A stretch of 64,000 nt of DNA, from the NCBI RefSeq assembly GCF_002237575.1, contig NZ_CP022535.1, positions 310,001-374,000 of the forward strand, written 5' to 3'. The notes under the pieces were generated by a model. That model saw nothing but the letters and a program-made list of their open reading frames with translations. It was not told the DNA's origin and made no database searches. Every line of letters starts with the position of its first letter. The first letter of the stretch is position 1. Positions 19,078-29,678 of the stretch are shown piece after piece. The stretch comes from Spiroplasma corruscae. GTDB lineage: Bacteria; Bacillota_I; Bacilli_A; Mycoplasmatales; Mycoplasmataceae. Position numbers and translations under genes: made by a program.

Positions 19078-20796
19078 ATGGAAAAAACAAAGTTGTGAGA
19101 AGTTCTTAAAGATAAATACGGTGAAGATTATTTATCCTACTTTACAATATTTGATATTAATAAAGATGATATTAATAATGTTTTTGACTCCTTACTTTCT
19201 GTGAATGATAAAATTTATGATTATCGTAACTTTATTATTAAAAAGATAAAGGAAAAATACATTTTTTTTACAGAAAATGTTTTTGATAATGGTCATTTTA
19301 AAAAGACAAATAATAAAGATGAGATCAATAATAATACTGCATTTTTTAATAGTCTAATCAGTTTATCGTTAAGAATATTAGCGTGTCAATATAATCATAT
19401 CGAGGATAATGAAGAATACCTTAACATTTCAAGAATTAATATCCCAAAAGTAAGTGAAGAAGTAACTAATGTTTTTAATTATAAAGAAAGTCTTTTATTG
19501 TATTACACCTCACTTTATAAATGGTTATTAACATTAATCAATTTCAATCATAATAAAACATTAGACTATTTTTCGAAAGTTGACAGTTTTATTATGATAG
19601 CACTTCAAAAAATTAAGTTTTATAAATCATTTTTTATATTAATTTGGATTTATGGAATAATACAAAAAGCTATTTTAGCACATGAATATTGTAAGTCTTT
19701 ATCAAATAACGAGAATGATTATAATATTAATAATATATTTAACCTAAGTACATTATCACCTGTTAGTGTATTAAAAATATCTAGTTATAATCATATTAGT
19801 CAAAATTTAGCGATTAAAAATGCAATGGAAAATAACAAAAACAAATTATTAAAGAATAATTTTGAAAAGCTTATTATTAAAAAGTTAAAAGAACGAGATT
19901 TATTAGCTTTTGACTTTAAAGAATATTTTACTATTATGGAAAAAGTTGAAAGTTCTTTTAGTTTTTATTATTCTTTTGAAAGTAATAAGTATTTAGATAG
20001 TTTGTGTAATGTTCTATTTTACTCTGATAGTTATGAAAATAATTTAAATACCATTAAAGAGGTTCTTGATATTCATATATATAATAAGATGAAGAACAAA
20101 ATATACACACAATTAATAAGTACTAATTATGATGTTGATTTCTTTAAAGGAGTTATTTTTAGTCATTCATTGCTCGGTCATAAAAAAACCTTATTCTCAT
20201 ATCCTGAGTTAATTGAAATGAATATTAGGTTAGAGAAAAAAGAGTTATTTACAATTTTAAATGATGAGTTTCAAATAAACTCTATTGTTAAAGAAACATT
20301 AAAAGAAGTGATATGAAATTATTTTAGCTCATTAAAGTTCAATAATCCAAATTATATAATTAAGGATATTAGCGGTATAAAATTAAAGAATCAAAAAAAA
20401 GAAGAAAATATTGGTGAAGCAGAAAAGTTTGACTTAGCTTTTATAGTAAAAAGTACAAATAAACTTTATCTAATTAAGTTTCTAAGGGTTAAAAATTATA
20501 AAAATTTAATGAGTAATTTTTTAAATGATATTTACTTTGGTAATAAATTCGATGAATTTACTTCAAGAAAAGTTACTGGTTTTTATGAAATATATCAAAA
20601 AAGTTGGCATAGATTAAAAAAACATTTAGGTTATAAAGATATTGAACAGACAGAATTTGTAGTAATTACTGATGAAGAGCCTAATTATATTATTTCAAAA
20701 AAAGTTGATGGAAAAGTAATTCATATTATTAAATATGATGATGTTGATTATTTTTTTAGGAGTTATATATTTAAAGAAATAAATATATTAGAATAA
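19078..20796 (+). CDS. Uncharacterised cytoplasmic protein, possible nuclease-like C-terminus
   Basis: 572 residues with no signal peptide and no clear membrane segment. The first 400 residues look helical, rich in Asn, Lys, Phe and Tyr. The C-terminal 150 residues change character: EKFDLAFIVKSTNKLYLIKFLRVKN (about 465-490) has the shape of a D-x(n)-[beta strand]-xK core of PD-(D/E)XK-like folds, though the expected acidic residue before Lys is Ile. A following segment reads TEFVVITDEEPNYI. I do not recognise a family. The start ATG is preceded by ACTAGGGG and a possible TATACT -10. A separate unit follows at 20822. Confidence 0.75.
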
Positions 20797-21694: not shown

Positions 21695-22795
21695 ATGAAA
21701 AAAGTAGCACTATTTGGAGGCAGTTTTGACCCAATTCATACTGACCACATTAATATAATGAAATCTTGTAAGAAAGATTTAAAGTTTGATGAAGTATGGC
21801 TGATACCAACTTATTTAAACCCGTTTAAATTAATATCAACTTCAAGTGTTAATCAAAGATTAGAAATGATTAAAATCGCTATAAAGGGTCTTGATTTTGT
21901 GAAAGTTAAAACTTATGAAATATCAAAAACTGTACGATCTTATACATATGATACTGTTTGTTATTATAAAAAAAAGTATCCTAATATAAATTTTTCTTTT
22001 ATTATGGGTTCTGATCAATTAGATAAGTTTGAAAAATGAGATCATTTTAAAAACTTAATTAAAGCTATTGATTTTAAGGTATATAAAAGAAGTGACACAT
22101 ATAATAATGAAATAATAAATAAATACAATTTAGAACTATTTGAATTTGAAAATAATTTTATAAGTTCTACTGAAATAAGAAATCTTGAAAAACTAAATCT
22201 TCAAATCAAAGAAGTAAATGACTATATAAATTATAATCTTATGTATCTTTATGAAAGATTAGAATCAAGAATGACACAAGAAAGATATTTTCATTCACTA
22301 AATGTTGGACGTTACTCATTAGAACTAGCCTTATTAAATAACTGTGATTTAAATAAAGCTTTTGTTGCTGGAACCCTTCATGATATTGCTAAAGAATGAG
22401 ATTATGATGAAATGAATGAATATATTAATCTTTTTGATAAAAGCTTATTAAAAGAACCAAAACAAGTATGGCATTCATTCGTTGGTTCTTTTCATCTGAA
22501 AAAGGATTGATTAATTGATGACCCAGTAATTACTAGTGCAGTTTTTAAACATACTGTTGCAGATAAAGACATGAGTGTAATTGATATGATAGTTTTTTGT
22601 GCAGATAAAATCTCTTATGAAAGAGATTATTTTGATATAGAAAGGTTTAGAGCAGTTGTAAAAGCTGATTTAAAAATGGGATTTAAAGAATTGCTAAAGA
22701 GACAGTTTGAATTTGCTAAATTAAAAAATGGAGTCGAAAATATTGGAACTAAGCTTTTAGAAGCATATGATTGATGGGTTACAAATGATAATTAA
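21695..22795 (+). CDS. nadD: NadD-YqeK fusion: nicotinate-nucleotide adenylyltransferase + HD hydrolase
   Basis: 366 residues in two domains. Residues 1 to about 180 are NadD, which adenylylates nicotinate mononucleotide for NAD synthesis: the nucleotidyltransferase motif GGSFDPIHTDH (8-18) and ISSTEIR (about 163) are intact. Residues from about 190 are YqeK, an HD-domain hydrolase (HSLNVGR, then the metal-binding HDIAKEW near 230, then a later HTVADKD), a family linked to diadenosine tetraphosphate hydrolysis. In Bacillus these are separate adjacent genes; here they are one reading frame. The last codons (TGA TGG, both Trp) overlap mtnN. SD is AAAGGAA. Confidence 0.93.
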
Positions 22796-23447
22796 TAAGT
22801 ATAATTACGCTTTCATTTTCGCAATGTATGATGAAGCAAAAGATACAATTGAATATCTTGGTTTTGAAAAAATAATGGGATTATTCGATATATATAAAAA
22901 GGATAATTATTATATAGTTATATCTGGTATTGGTTTGGTAAATGCTTCAACTTGCCTTACATATATGGATACTAAGTTTGATATATCATATTTTATTAAT
23001 GTAGGTACTGCATGTAGCTTGTCTCATTCATTTAAGCAACTTGATTTTTTTATAGTCGAAGAGGCTTTTCTTGGAAATGTGGATGTAACTGGTTTTGGTT
23101 ACTCTTTTGGACAAGTTCCAAAAATGCCAAAAAGTTATCTTTCAAACGATCTTTTTAATAAGGAATTAATTAATTTTAAAAAAGTAAAAATACTATCAAG
23201 TGATGTATTTATAAATTCTAAGGAAAAAGTTGAAAACATTATTTATAAAGTATCTAAGGATATAGATTTAGTTGATATGGAGTGTGCAGCAATTTTTCAA
23301 AGTGCATATATTCTTAAAAAAAGTGTCATTAGTATAAAAATCATAAGTGATGTTGTTGGAACAAATTCAAATGAGAATGATTTTGCAAAAGTAATGGTAC
23401 AATGCTCAAGCAAAATTAAAAATTTAATAAAACTAATAATAAAATAA
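22767..23447 (+). CDS. mtnN: 5'-methylthioadenosine/S-adenosylhomocysteine nucleosidase
   Basis: 226 residues (220 if the second ATG, 22785, is used). It cleaves adenine from MTA and SAH, removing inhibitors of methyltransferases. The nucleosidase signature VDMECAAIFQSA (about residues 169-180; usually VDMExAA, with the ribose-binding Met-Glu) and GTACSL (about 86) are clear. The catalytic Asp occurs in the ISDVVGT segment near the end. It overlaps nadD by 29 bases from ATG 22767 or 11 from ATG 22785; either start implies coupled translation. A bidirectional terminator overlaps its stop. Confidence 0.9.
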   Translation: MIDGLQMIINKYNYAFIFAMYDEAKDTIEYLGFEKIMGLFDIYKKDNYYIVISGIGLVNASTCLTYMDTKFDISYFINVGTACSLSHSFKQLDFFIVEEAFLGNVDVTGFGYSFGQVPKMPKSYLSNDLFNKELINFKKVKILSSDVFINSKEKVENIIYKVSKDIDLVDMECAAIFQSAYILKKSVISIKIISDVVGTNSNENDFAKVMVQCSSKIKNLIKLIIK

Positions 23448-23475
23448 AAATATGGAAAATTTTCCATATTTTTAT
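23446..23475. terminator. Bidirectional terminator
   Basis: A long palindrome of AAAAATATGG/CCATATTTTT type between convergent mtnN (plus) and the small membrane protein (minus). It has A's on one side and T's on the other, so it serves both strands. Confidence 0.8.
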
Positions 23476-23516
23476 TTTATTATTAGAATATAAATGTATA
23501 ATAAAAACAAGAATTA

Positions 23517-23714
23517 TTAAATTTTATTAGTTATCTTTAATACTAATAAAACAATTCCGATAGTTCAGAATAATAGTAATGAGAAAAATATTAAAAATTT
23601 TGATCAAGAAAAAAATTTATGCATTATTTTATCCATAAATCTAATTATTCCTCAAATAACAAACGGTGCTGCAAATATTATTCCTATTATTATAGCTATT
23701 ACTTCAGTGCTCAT
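23517..23714 (-). CDS. 65-residue two-TM membrane protein (paralogue of 28482..28679)
   Basis: The minus-strand frame begins MSTEVIAIIIG, has membrane segments at about residues 5-25 and 39-60, and a basic loop FMDKIMHKFF between them. Three TGA Trp codons break it in the standard code, so it is easily missed. The start follows GAGGT. It aligns without gaps to another 65-residue minus-strand protein 5 kb away: M27, D/E28, K29, I30, H32 and F35 are shared. It lies upstream of and divergent from the 6-phospho-beta-glucosidase gene. Same size, topology and motif argue for a real gene family; function unknown. Confidence 0.7.
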
Positions 23715-23764
23715 TTCATAACCTCGCTACTACTATTCTATAATAAAAATGAGAGGAAAATTTT

Positions 23765-25264
23765 ATGAAAAAACATGATTTTTTATTTTCGGTATCAACA
23801 AATGCATTTCAAATTGAAGGTGCAAGAAGTTTACATGGTAGAACTGACTCGTTATGAGATTGATATACAAAAACTTATTATAAAGTACCACCAGTAGGAT
23901 CTACAGAAAGAGAAATTAATTCAATAGAAGTATCAAGTGATTTTTATCATAAATATAAATCTGATATAAAAATCATGAAAGATTTGGGATTAAATGCCTT
24001 TGTATATAATATGGATTGAACTAGAATTTTTCCAACTAATGAAAATTATATAAACCCAATGGGAATTCAATTTTATGTTAACTTATTTGAAGAACTTAGA
24101 AATAATAATATTAAACCTATTCCAATTTTATTTCATTGAGATACACCTATGTGACTAGAAATAAAGGGTGGTTGAGAGTCAAAAGAAATACTTAAAGCAT
24201 TTAGAAATTATTGCGCAACTGTATTTAAGTATTTAGGTAAATACACAGATATTTGGTTTGTTAATGATGAAAATAAATCATTTACATTAGATGGTTATTT
24301 AGGTGACACATTTCCTCCTTGTAAAAATAGTCCAACAAGTTTTGTAAAAGCTATTCATAATTTAAATATGTCGGGTGCAATCGCAAAAGAAGAGTTTTTA
24401 AAAGCTAAAGAACTAGGTTATATTACAGAAAGTTCAATACTAGGTATTGATGATGATTGATCACCTCCTGTAATTTGAGGTGATGAGAAAAATGATACTC
24501 TTAATAATGAATTATTGGAGAACTATAATTCATGAATGAGAGATTTTTGAATTGATCCAAATATTCTTGGAAAATATCCAAGTGTTTTTTGAGATTATAT
24601 AAAAGAAAAAAATCTAGACCCTAATATTTTGGAAGGAGAGCTTGAATATTTAAGTAAATATAAACTCGACTTTATTGGTTGGAATTTTTATAGACCTTAT
24701 TTTATTACAAACAAAAATATGATAATTGATAAAACATTACTTCATAAAGAACCTGTTAATTTTGACTTTGGAAATTTCTCAGTTGTGTTGCCAAAAGAAC
24801 ATAAAAATTATACAAAGTGACTATGACCAATTTTCCCTGAATATTTAGAAGTTGGCTTAAAGGCTTATAAAGATAAATATAATTTACCAATCATGATAAT
24901 CGAAAATGGTTTTGGAGACTTTGATGATAAATCTAAAAAGCTTATATTAGACTACGATAGAATAAATTATTTAAAACCAATCATAGATATAATTACAAAA
25001 TGTAGAGAAAAAGAACTAAATCTTTTCGGTTATTCATTGTGGACTTACTGTGATATATTTTCACCTAGTGCTGGATATAGAAAAGACTATGGTTTAGTAT
25101 CTGTAGACTTCAATTCTCCAATTTTAGAAAGAAAACCAAAACTTAGTTATTGTTGATATAAAAATGTCATTAAATCAAATGGTAAAGTAACAGATTTTAA
25201 TAAAAAAGAACTAGAAAATGAACTTAATGAATTATTAGATAATTGGAATATAGGATGAAAATAA
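23765..25264 (+). CDS. 6-phospho-beta-glucosidase, GH1
   Basis: 499 residues. Hydrolyses phosphorylated beta-glucosides delivered by the neighbouring PTS. The GH1 nucleophile is Glu380 in IIENGFG and the acid/base is Glu169 in WFVNDEN; the usual NE pair reads DE, so the preceding Asn, which normally contacts the glycone, is Asp. The 6-phosphate site is visible as SPSAGYRKDY (Ser, Lys, Tyr at the spacing S-x6-K-x-Y), which supports a 6-phospho substrate. The N-terminus STNAFQIEGA is family-typical. ATG 23765 follows GAGAGGA. The DUF3284-like gene starts one base after the stop. Confidence 0.9.
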
Positions 25265-25265
25265 T

Positions 25266-25874
25266 ATGAAAGATATAAAGTTAGAAAATGAAGAAAAATT
25301 AATAGCTCAAAAAAATTATGATGATATTGTTGAAAAATTAAATAAACAAAAGTATACTTCTTTATTTGAAGAAAGAAAAAGAATAAGCAAGCTTTTCTCT
25401 TCAATGAAAATAAAAAAACCTATTGAAGAAGTTTATAATGCATTTTTACAAATATCATTAGATGATATGAATCCAAATTTAAAAAACTTAGTACTAGAAG
25501 AGGGAAGTTGATATAGATCTAGTAAGAAAAACAATAATAATATTTTCAAATTAGAAAAACTTGTTGAAAATAAAGAAATTTCTATTACTTGAGCTATCAA
25601 AAATCAGCTGTTTATTAAATCAGTTAAGTTTAGGTCTAATTCTTCAAATAAAATAACTAAAATAACATATTTTGATTTCGCAAAAGGCGATACATCTATA
25701 ATGGGGTTTTTTGAAAGGCATATATTATCTGTTTATTTAAAAAAGCAGTTCTTAGCATTTAGAGTTCAAGTTTATAAGACTAAATTATTGCTGAATTTAT
25801 ATAAACCTGCCAAAGTTGTTATTGTTAATAAAAAAATAGATAAATTATTAGAATATATTAAAAATATAATTTAA
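25266..25874 (+). CDS. DUF3284-like (SRPBCC fold?) protein, PTS-associated
   Basis: 202 residues. An N-terminal charged helix of about 40 residues (EEKLIAQKNYDDIVEKLNKQ) precedes a domain of about 150 residues with KKPIEEVYNAFLQISLDD and, near the end, FDFAKGDTSIMGFFERHILSVYLKKQF. That pattern is similar to DUF3284 proteins, small cytoplasmic proteins often encoded beside lactose/cellobiose PTS genes; I assign it from memory of the family. The ATG lies one base after the glucosidase stop, so they are coupled. It may bind or sense a sugar-derived ligand, but nothing in the sequence proves that. Confidence 0.6.
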
Positions 25875-25943
25875 ATAAAAAAAATTCTATTATTTTGTAT
25901 TATTTTGGAAAAATTAATATATAATTTTCTTAAAGGAGGTTGT

Positions 25944-26246
25944 ATGAAAAAAATTTTATTAGTTTGCTCTGCAGGTATGTCAACAAGTATGCTTGTAAAA
26001 AAGATGCAAATGTATGCAACAATTAAGAAAATAGATTTTGAAATTGTAGCTAAAGGCATGGCAGAAGCAAAACAAGATTTAGCTTCATTTGATGCTATAA
26101 TGATTGGTCCACAAATAAGTTATGCATTAGATGAAATTAAAAAAAATGCTTCCGGAAAACCGGTGGAATTAATACCTACACAAATATATGCACTAGCAAA
26201 AGGTGAAGATGCTGTAAAACAAGCATTAAGAATGCTAGAAATGTAA
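25944..26246 (+). CDS. PTS cellobiose/lactose family EIIB
   Basis: 100 residues. EIIB accepts phosphate from EIIA and passes it to the sugar during transport. The active-site Cys8 sits in the LLVCSAGMSTSMLV loop, diagnostic of the Lac/Cel family. ATG 25944 is set by the strong SD AAAGGAGG; an upstream in-frame TTG at 25905 would wrongly include the SD. EIIC follows after 23 bases. The system is closest in design to chitobiose/cellobiose PTS, with EIIA encoded separately 2.5 kb downstream. Confidence 0.92.
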   Translation: MKKILLVCSAGMSTSMLVKKMQMYATIKKIDFEIVAKGMAEAKQDLASFDAIMIGPQISYALDEIKKNASGKPVELIPTQIYALAKGEDAVKQALRMLEM

Positions 26247-26269
26247 TATGTAAGGAAAGGAGTAATAAT

Positions 26270-28450
26270 ATGAAGGATAATAAATTTACCCCTGATAAAG
26301 ATTTTAGATCCAAAGAGAAATTGAATTTTAAATCTTGATTCAAAACAAAATTTATACCGACAATGGCTAAAGCTGGAAATCAAAGATATCTTGCTGCAAT
26401 TCGTGATTCATTTGGTACAATGATTCCTCTTATTATAGCTGGATCAATTGGTGTTTTAATTAATGCAATTGTGTTTGGTGGAGCTGGATCAGGATACATA
26501 TCACTACTTGGTCTTTTTGCCAAAGCAGCTCATAGTGATTATACTTGAGAACAAGTTGGTAATTTAATTAGTACTGGTAATGCAGGTTTTGATGGTGCGC
26601 CAGATATTCTGGGATGAATGCAAACATCTAAAATATGTGGTTTAGCATTTGGACATATGAACACAGTAACAGTAGGAATGATGTCAATATATTTCTCATT
26701 TTTATTTGGTTATTATATATCAATTTCAAGAGGTTTTCAATCACCGATAATAGCAGGTATGGTTTCAACTGCATCATTTATGCTTGCTAGTTTAGGTGAA
26801 GTTCAATTCTTTATGGATGCTAAAGGTCTTATTGGTGCCATTATATTCGGTATTATGGCAACAGAACTATTTTTATGGTTATCTTCATTAAGAGCCTTAA
26901 AAATAAAACTACCAGATAGTGTACCTCCTGCCGTTGGTAAATCATTTGCCGTATTTTTACCAGTTACATTAACACTTATGGCAGTTAGTGGATTGAATAT
27001 AATTATTTTAACACTTGCTATTGTAGTATTTAATTGAAATGTTACAGGTAATAATCAAGTTGCTGGATTAAAAGATGTAACTGAAATAGATAGTCTATTT
27101 AATGCAATTAAGTCTTTGGGAGGCGAGGGTATTGCTAAACATTTAGGAATTGATTATGCTACAAATCAAAGCTGAATTGATTCATTAGTTACAAACCTTA
27201 ATAGAGAAAACTTCGCACAATGATACGAAGGTCAAGATTCAATGGTTCAATCTTATGTCGCAACATTAGTTATGACAACAAAATTTGGTGATTCTTCTAC
27301 TTCGTTAGTGGATTTAGGTAACTTTTATGATATTGCCAAAAATAATATCTTACATTTTGGATTAAGTAATGGATCAATTGATGTTATTACTGGTTCATAT
27401 ATTGGCACAAATTTAGGACCAACACAGTTTGGTGCAAGTGCTGCAATTTATCAATTCATAACATCATGATTTATTGGTTTTGCAACTGGTAATGGTGGAT
27501 TAGGATTAGGTATAGCATTCATGATATTAGTTGGGTTCTTCTGATTCTTTGGTGTTCATGGATCAAACGTAATGGGTGGAATATTTGAACCAATATTCTT
27601 AATGGTCTTGGGAATTAATAGTGCATTAGTTAGTTCATTAGGATATGAAGCAGCCGCTGCAAGTGGTTCTATGGGTGTATTTGCAAAACCATTCTTTGAT
27701 GGTTATGCATATGTAGGTGGTAGTGGTGCCACATTAGGATTATTAATAATGACATTTTGTTTATCAAAAAGAAGAGAATTAAAAGAAATAGCAAAATATT
27801 CAACACCGGCAGGTATATTCCAAATTAATGAACCAGTTATATTTGGATATCCAATGGTTTTAAATGTTGTTTATGTTGTGCCATTTATTTTCACTCCTGT
27901 GTTAAATCTAATAATTGGTTATCTATTCTCACCAGCTGTCTTTGGCTTTGTTAAGTATTCATATGTATTAGCACCGTGAACAGCACCGTGATTCTTAACA
28001 GCAGTAATAACTTCTCTAGATGCTAGGGCAATTATTCCAGCAATGATCTGTTTTGGAGTAACTATTACTGCATATCTACCATTTGTTATGTTAGATAACA
28101 TACTATATTTTAAAAAATTAAAACTAAATGACCCTGCAAAATATGAAGAAGAAAAACGTTATTATGGTGATAAATTATACAGATTTAAAATTGATACAGA
28201 TACAAAATATGAAAATATGCAAAACAAAGCTGAGTATATTTTATTAAATGCAGAATCTTCAAATGAGTTTTGGGCAAAAAGAATGGTAAATAAACAAAAA
28301 CTTGAAGAACGAAAACAAAATCAAATTGAAGCAGCAAAAATTAAAAGAGAAAAAGTTTTAGAAAAATCAATAATTTATAAAGAAAATAGAGATAAAAAGT
28401 ATATTATTCTAGAACAAAAAATTAAAAACAAAAAACAAAAAAGTGTATAA
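26270..28450 (+). CDS. PTS cellobiose-type EIIC with C-terminal charged tail
   Basis: 726 residues, well over the usual 430-450. EIIC is the membrane channel that binds and translocates the beta-glucoside during phosphorylation. The core (SFGTMIPLIIAGSIG at about 42, GGFVGVHGSN-like region FFGVHGSNVMGG near 428, and NEPVIFGYPM near 521) is typical of the Lac/Cel family; the last holds the conserved NEP. Two additions stand out: roughly 120 residues (about 257-380) in the middle and about 110 residues of Lys/Glu-rich, probably coiled-coil sequence from about 615 to the end. Numerous TGA Trp. SD AAAGGAGT. Confidence 0.9.
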
Positions 28451-28488
28451 AATTTAGAAAAACTGTCTTTTGACAGTTTTTCTAAATT
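28451..28488. terminator. Strong bidirectional terminator
   Basis: A perfect 17-base stem with a TTTT loop, arms at 28451-28467 and 28472-28488. It separates EIIC from the convergent 65-residue protein, whose stop (28482-28484) lies within the right arm. Confidence 0.85.
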
Positions 28489-28679
28489 GAAACAAATAAT
28501 GAGGTAATAACAATTGCTATAACTATTATTGTACATACTATTATACCGATTACATACATTTTTAATTTGAATGCGAAATAATGATGCCAAATTTTTTCCA
28601 TTGACTCAAATATTATATAAATAATTAAACAAATAATTATAGGTATAAAACTAAAATAAGCTAAATCAGATATGTGCAT
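28482..28679 (-). CDS. 65-residue two-TM membrane protein (paralogue of 23517..23714)
   Basis: MHISDLAYFSFIP begins the protein; an upstream TTG would add four residues but gives no better SD. Segments at about 8-25 and 42-62 are hydrophobic, with ESMEKIWHHYF between. It matches the other 65-residue protein position for position at M27, E/D28, K29, I30, H32 and F35. It lies convergent with EIIC and divergent from EIIA. Two paralogues embedded, on the opposite strand, at two points in one PTS locus suggest a role in sugar transport or its regulation; this is inference. Confidence 0.7.
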   Translation of the reverse strand: MHISDLAYFSFIPIIICLIIYIIFESMEKIWHHYFAFKLKMYVIGIIVCTIIVIAIVITSLFVSI

Positions 28680-28741
28680 AGTTATAACCAACTTTCAATA
28701 ATATTATAGCAATTTTATTTAAATTATATGGAGGAGTAGTT

Positions 28742-29062
28742 ATGGAAATATTAAACTTTGAAGAAATTTCTTTTACAATAATTGCAAATGCAGGTGAAGC
28801 AAAAGGAAGAGCTATTAATGCAATAAGGTTAGCTAGGGAAGGTAAATTTGAAGAAGCGAAAGTAGAATTAGATTTGTCTGAAAAATCAATGGGCATTGCA
28901 GGTCATAGTCATTTAGATGTAATTTCTGCAGAAGCATCGGGAAAGAAGATTCAAATTCCAGTTTTATTTATGCACGCAGAAGATCAATTATTAACAACAG
29001 AAACTGTTATTTTATTAGCAAAAGAAATGGTTGAATTATATAAATTTATTAAGAATAAATAA
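28742..29062 (+). CDS. PTS cellobiose/lactose family EIIA
   Basis: 106 residues, all-helical. EIIA takes phosphate from HPr and hands it to EIIB. The active His78 lies in FMHAEDQL, with Asp81 (trimer metal site) three residues later, and the family motif GEAKGRAI is at about 18-25. Length is standard. SD TATGGAGGAG. It is transcribed separately from EIIB/EIIC, being cut off by the terminator at 28451 and the minus-strand small gene, and closed by a hairpin at 29072. Confidence 0.93.
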   Translation: MEILNFEEISFTIIANAGEAKGRAINAIRLAREGKFEEAKVELDLSEKSMGIAGHSHLDVISAEASGKKIQIPVLFMHAEDQLLTTETVILLAKEMVELYKFIKNK

Positions 29063-29071
29063 AAATTAATT

Positions 29072-29119
29072 AAACGTTCATACATAGATTTTAATTAATT
29101 AATGTATAAATGTTTTTTT
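29072..29119 (+). terminator. Probable rho-independent terminator
   Basis: Arms 29072-29085 and 29102-29115 pair at 13 of 14 positions (one G-U, one mismatch) around a 16-base loop, followed by U's. It lies after EIIA. Confidence 0.55.
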
Positions 29120-29150
29120 AATTTATAATTAATTTGTTTAAGAGGTAAAT

Positions 29151-29678
29151 ATGATAGATAACAATAAGTTTGAGTTACTAATTTCTAAAGAAGAAATACA
29201 TAAGAAAATAAGTGAGTACGCAGATAAATTAAATAAAAAGTATAGTGGAAAAACTTTAACGGTAATCGCAATCTTAAATGGAGCAATATTCTTTTTCACA
29301 GATTTATTAAAAAAACTAAATTTTCCAATTAAAATGGATACAATAACCGTTTCAAGTTATGATGGTATTAAATCAACTGATGATTTAAATTATCATAAAA
29401 AACTAGTAAAACCAATTGTTGAAAACGAAGATGTATTAATTATTGAAGATATTATTGACACTGGTAAAACAATGAACTCAGTTTATGAGTACATTAAATC
29501 GTTAAATCCAAAGTCATTAGAGTTAGTTGTATTAGCTTCAAAGTCGGATACAAAAAATAAGTTTAATTATGATTATGAATCATTATTTGTTGTTCCAGAT
29601 AAATACATTGTAGGTTATGGTTTTGCAATTGATGATCTTTATAGACAACTTGAAGATATTTATATAATGAAGGATTAA
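29151..29678 (+). CDS. hpt: Hypoxanthine phosphoribosyltransferase
   Basis: 175 residues. Converts hypoxanthine (and guanine) to IMP (GMP) with PRPP. The PRPP signature VLIIEDIIDTGKT at about 95-107 and the N-terminal AILNGAIFFFTDL (about 41-53) are typical; the DxxxVGYGFAIDD end is characteristic of HPT. Salvage fits a cell with a nucleoside importer and no sign of de novo purine synthesis in the window. The SD is TAAGAGGT. The stop overlaps the methyltransferase ATG by one base. Confidence 0.94.
   Translation: MIDNNKFELLISKEEIHKKISEYADKLNKKYSGKTLTVIAILNGAIFFFTDLLKKLNFPIKMDTITVSSYDGIKSTDDLNYHKKLVKPIVENEDVLIIEDIIDTGKTMNSVYEYIKSLNPKSLELVVLASKSDTKNKFNYDYESLFVVPDKYIVGYGFAIDDLYRQLEDIYIMKD

Follow-up and report, generated by a model that had tools for sequence, protein, structure and literature searches.

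Paralogous small membrane proteins associated with lactose/cellobiose-type PTS loci in Spiroplasma corruscae and related bacteria

EIIA, EIIB and EIIC are, to our knowledge, usually the only parts described for EII complexes of the lactose/cellobiose-family (lac-family) PTS. KdpF, like AcrZ and MgtS, is a small membrane partner of a transporter. AcrZ acting on AcrB is a precedent for modulation of a transporter by a small protein, and AcrZ and MgtS, both small membrane proteins, tune or stabilise the transporter to which they bind (PMC10710835). The nearest functional precedent on a PTS EII permease is SgrT, a 43-aa protein of E. coli that inhibits PtsG/EIICB-Glc (PMC3901232, PMC10710835). Besides, proteins with DUF3284 (PF11687), such as ChbD and CelI, are accessory proteins of cellobiose-type PTS loci without which PTS sugars are not used efficiently; L. 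paracasei and E. faecalis need DUF3284 proteins to grow well on such sugars (PMC12791066).

The window analysed here, a 64,000-nucleotide stretch of the S. corruscae genome (G000), contains a lac-family PTS locus with two minus-strand genes encoding small proteins, termed type A and type B hairpins (Table 1). SgrT, the coding sequence of which lies in the sRNA SgrS, reaches the membrane through recruitment by EIICB and binds the KTPGRED linker motif of a glucose-family EII, whereas the hairpins are predicted integral proteins with two TM segments from lac-family loci, and no SgrS-type sRNA host was found for them with Rfam at E 0.1 over 22700–29300. Since sequence class, topology and origin differ, the hairpins may work like SgrT but should not be called SgrT. 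The AcrZ, MgtS and KdpF-type proteins are shorter (~30–50 aa), belong with other transporter classes and showed no Pfam/NCBIfam link to the hairpins. DUF3284-like proteins are found in nearly all hairpin loci, but DUF3284 proteins are non-membrane proteins of 120–200 aa, and no hairpin was seen close to their loci outside the order. The hairpins were found to be 60–70 aa long (some longer), with two predicted TM helices, a basic loop and a gene beside a lac-family PTS. Searches of the type A family against Pfam and NCBIfam, of the type B family against Pfam and of the window type B protein against NCBIfam reported no match over cut-off for the window hairpins, only chance-like ones (TatC 0.016, Oxidored_q3 0.0025), and judged by these profiles the family is absent from the libraries searched. 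A literature search found no paper on such small proteins in Spiroplasma.

The PTS locus and its two small genes

Table 1. Features of the PTS locus (window coordinates)
Feature	Position	Strand	Remarks
Type A hairpin protein gene	23517..23714	-	65 aa, 2 TM predicted
Head-to-head spacer, type A gene/bgl	23715..23764		50 bases
GH1 phospho-beta-glycosidase (bgl)	23765..25264	+	PF00232 E 6.5e-101
DUF3284-like cytosolic protein, 202 aa	25266..25874	+	Homologous across loci; no Pfam match for window protein
EIIB, lactose/cellobiose family	25944..26246	+	PF02302 E 9.1e-15
EIIC, lactose/cellobiose family, 726 aa	26270..28450	+	PF02378 E 2.7e-26; TIGR00359/TIGR00410 E 4.3e-62, two stretches
Inverted repeat AATTTAGAAAAACTGTC..GACAGTTTTTCTAAATT 3' of EIIC	28450..28487		Overlaps type B gene stop
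Type B hairpin protein gene	28482..28679	-	65 aa, 2 TM predicted
Head-to-head spacer, type B gene/EIIA gene	28680..28741		62 bases
EIIA, lactose/cellobiose family	28742..29062	+	PF02255 E 6.4e-28

Read with genetic code 4 (TGA = Trp), both frames were open over 65 residues at the coordinates given in the preliminary description. The type A gene is flanked by bgl on one side and by a gene for an MTA/SAH nucleosidase on the other, the type B gene by the EIIC and EIIA genes. Both had been described as embedded on the opposite strand in the PTS locus; they do lie on the minus strand, but overlap no PTS gene and instead fill intergenic gaps, head-to-head with bgl and the EIIA gene, respectively. 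TGA occurs as a Trp codon three times in the type A frame and not at all in that of type B; it hides the type A frame, as had been proposed, solely under the wrong genetic code.

Comparison of the source genome with G011 and G016 showed purifying selection in both minus-strand frames (pN/pS 0.22–0.53), with changes mostly at codon position 3. Both genes have ribosome-binding sites; GAGG ~7–8 bases 5' of ATG, as in the type A gene, and A/T-rich -10-like elements recur upstream of hairpin genes, and the -10-like element TGCTATAAT was seen upstream of the type B gene. Relatives of similar length were found in G011, G016, G018, G010 and other genera, and family profile searches reached E-values to 1e-27. 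The relatives extend across the genus, to other genera of the family and to another family of the order, so that the proposal withstood the search for homologues in related genomes. The AT-rich genome contains many spurious small ORFs, but chance open frames in AT-rich spacers are refuted by this conservation in many genomes, by pN/pS well below 1 and by the profile E-values, and are hardly conceivable here. Both ORFs are genuine genes for small membrane proteins.

The window EIIC exceeds the 424-position models, the extra residues lying at ~252–370, and fits canonical models over both halves, because of which the idea that the hairpins are a missing EIIC piece was rejected. It also carries a charged C-terminal tail of ~110 residues. 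The inverted repeat 3' of its gene, found by reading the sequence and absent from the terminator scan list, reads as a putative two-way terminator. In the type A spacer, promoter-like hexamers in both directions overlap at 23739–23745, which is suggestive, although their count did not exceed that in shuffles; promoter and terminator scans as a whole gave no excess over shuffles. An RNA-leader explanation for the locus was set aside as Rfam gave no match over 22700–29300 at E 0.1. Upstream, a 572-aa protein without NCBIfam match (19078–20796) is kept in G011 and G016 with 43–45% identity.

Relationship and predicted shape of the two types

The preliminary description regarded the two 65-residue proteins as paralogues, and this was borne out at the profile level. 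BLASTP between the window proteins was weak (E 0.042), and their ungapped alignment gave a block-shuffle p of ~0.001. The family profiles aligned in the same register over 57 columns (hhalign probability 94.5, E 8e-8), with a score of 38.6 compared to a maximum of 27.1 in 400 shuffled profiles, in which composition, hydropathy class or local segments were kept, and 7–9 for reversed profiles. The type A profile also retrieved type B proteins from G026, G065, G073, G076 and G016. At the family level the relation of types A and B as paralogues is firm.

The motif first proposed (M27, D/E28, K29, I30, H32, F35) does consist of ungapped identities between the window pair, with D/E at 28, but M27, I30 and F35 vary within the families, and the motif is partly incidental. 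Conserved in the hairpin families are D/E28, K/R29, H/Q32 and a lysine at 38 or 39. In type A, P17 and W21 are invariant and the motif is P-F-x-x-W ... R-F-x-D-K-x-x-H/Q ... W-x-K, and type B has invariant P13, E28 and K38 and the motif I-P ... E-K/R-x-x-H ... K.

Single-sequence models gave two helices per protein, at 2–33 and 37–64 in type A (pLDDT 82.8) and at 3–30 and 32–64 in type B (pLDDT 81.1), in agreement with the two TM segments noted initially. Among 39 family members, 181 of the 195 Lys/Arg outside helices were in the loop, 1 in the N-termini and 13 in the C-termini, from which the positive-inside rule predicts a cytoplasmic loop, with the N- and C-termini on the outer side. Types A and B are thus predicted to be helical hairpins with a short, strongly basic cytoplasmic loop.

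Genomic company and co-occurrence

Contexts tabulated by hand for 61 hairpin copies (type A 26, type B 21, subtype C 8 and subtype D 6) showed that about 60 adjoin a lactose/cellobiose-type PTS, its GH1 phospho-glycosidase or a DUF3284-like gene. Type A was head-to-head with GH1 in 20/26 loci; among the other copies, that of G029 faced the DUF3284-like gene and that of G172 faced EIIA, again head-to-head, whereas those of G012 and G186 ran in the same direction as EIIC and EIIA, respectively. In G080 the type A gene converged with an EIIB operon, and in G036 it lay 5.8 kb from EIIC. Type B was head-to-head with EIIA (5; G000, G016, G011, G018, G010), EIIB (14) or EIIC (1; G028) in 20/21 loci, the exception being a second, co-directional locus in G010. 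This arrangement, type A by GH1 and type B by EIIA/EIIB/EIIC, holds over several genera and two families, and G230 (L182), which belongs to another family of the order, had the identical layout A/GH1 plus B/EIIB. In subtype C, the loci of which are without GH1, seven of the eight copies were head-to-head with EIIB and the eighth (G024, L116) was near EIIC with a transposase fragment between. All six subtype D copies were co-directional inside the operon, directly before the DUF3284-like gene. Opposite-strand placement is thus typical for types A and B but not general, and the constant feature is PTS company, not strand. The linkage between hairpins and PTS in these Spiroplasma-like Mollicutes is very strong; the pattern first noticed is real, and stronger than had been guessed.

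Like many regulator genes, most A and B copies stand head-to-head with a gene of the PTS locus at its start, and promoter-like hexamers overlap in the type A spacer. The hairpin gene might accordingly act mainly because its transcription opposes that of the PTS gene, or its protein might sense at the membrane and control a regulator. We consider this improbable, as the protein sequence is under selection and includes no DNA-binding part, the subtype D genes are co-directional and the promoter matches are no more than chance.

Among 60 genomes of the family, the 24 that encode a close EIIC (E under 1e-50) all had a hairpin, compared to 3/36 others (G005, G070, G080; Fisher p 8e-14), and types A and B occurred together in 19/22 (p 7.5e-13); since the genomes are related, both p-values overstate independence. 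In the EIIC tree, carriers of the same hairpin subtype fell together, with 100/100 for D and almost completely for AB and C, and with 4 subtype changes compared to 14.0 in shuffles. The hairpin was shown to be lost together with the PTS: in G070 (L131) the bgl/PTS locus has decayed to a remnant in which GH1 and EIIA are fragmented and a TAG interrupts the type A frame. G005 retains a hairpin and a DUF3284-like gene with no EIIC nearby. Small hydrophobic hairpins are common among stress and toxin-like peptides, and the hairpins might have an unrelated membrane function of this kind and simply hitch-hike beside PTS genes. The linkage of about 60 of 61 copies to the same system, the joint loss, the agreement of hairpin and EIIC subtypes and the lack of an Rfam RNA at the locus make it a poor candidate.

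Lac-family EIICs without a detected hairpin nearby exist (e.g., G027 L144, G031 L145, G073 L139), which shows that the hairpin is not a universal need of this kind of transporter. A candidate at G027:778909 was discarded as part of a 501-aa membrane protein. In a class-wide search outside the order, in which G470 alone was inspected in detail, apparent matches looked like parts of larger frames or had no PTS neighbours, and scans of named organisms' contigs and named loci gave no confirmed relative, where TGA codons may matter for type A.

Relatives of the DUF3284-like protein are present in nearly all hairpin loci. At the PF11687 cut-off of 23.7 bits the window protein gave no match and one homologue was just under (21.9 bits, E 1.7e-4); counterparts in two subtype C loci passed, and the one in the second PTS locus of the source genome reached 24.9 bits. 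DUF3284 loci in other Bacilli had no hairpin within 1.5-kb flanks, so that the addition of a hairpin has to date been seen in this order alone. The second PTS locus of the source genome (region of G000:C1:773886) also has an M17 aminopeptidase and an asparaginase-type hydrolase, and a third hairpin paralogue, of subtype C, lies there outside the window, head-to-head with EIIB (G000:C1:773886-774071; L114 7886-8077).

Possible function of the hairpins

The repeated placement beside the same sugar-uptake system suggests that the hairpins are accessory or control parts of the transporter, and the initial guess that they modulate EIIC is consistent with these findings. By a slight margin over even chances, we favour the reading as a whole, in which genuine paralogous, PTS-tied hairpins have an accessory or regulatory role on EIIC, perhaps together with the DUF3284-like protein. 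The hairpins would be placed next to EIIC in the membrane, and their cytoplasmic loop could hold or control a cytosolic part (EIIB, the phospho-glycosidase or the DUF3284-like protein). Beta-glucoside uptake or phosphorylation would thereby be adjusted, by either activation or inhibition; the head-to-head genes could let hairpin and PTS transcription be set opposed or together.

The hairpins may instead have the DUF3284-like protein or GH1 as their partner, and the linkage data fit a partner other than EIIC equally well. The hairpin loop might serve as a membrane tether for a cytosolic protein, either the phospho-glycosidase (type A) or the DUF3284-like protein, so that phospho-sugar would be cleaved at entry with no direct effect on EIIC. 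The pairing of type A with GH1, the constant position of subtype D before the DUF3284-like gene, the gene content of G005 and the predicted cytoplasmic location of the basic loop agree with a tether, but GH1 is missing from subtype C loci and type B is tied to EIIA/EIIB and not to GH1; we regard it as unlikely, though the strongest of the competing explanations. A more specific form of the EIIC-directed reading, which we put forward only speculatively, is that the two types of hairpin assemble into one hetero-oligomeric unit, a regular extra part of the Mollicute lac-family PTS that acts with the DUF3284-like protein on EIIC, the head-to-head genes giving reciprocal control of transporter and modulator.

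The conserved hairpin pair and the DUF3284-like proteins point to further components of the lac-family PTS. That genome-reduced bacteria keep the hairpins implies a real need, and the small genomes of the carriers make hairpin function easy to test. Another two-TM protein with a basic loop, of 89–95 aa, lies by PTS-type loci in G018 (L143 8589-8858) and G012 (L054 13931-14218) and is not matched by the hairpin profiles, and in G021 the gene immediately upstream of EIIC (L146 8697-8900) encodes a hairpin-like protein of 67 aa, a possible very distant member.
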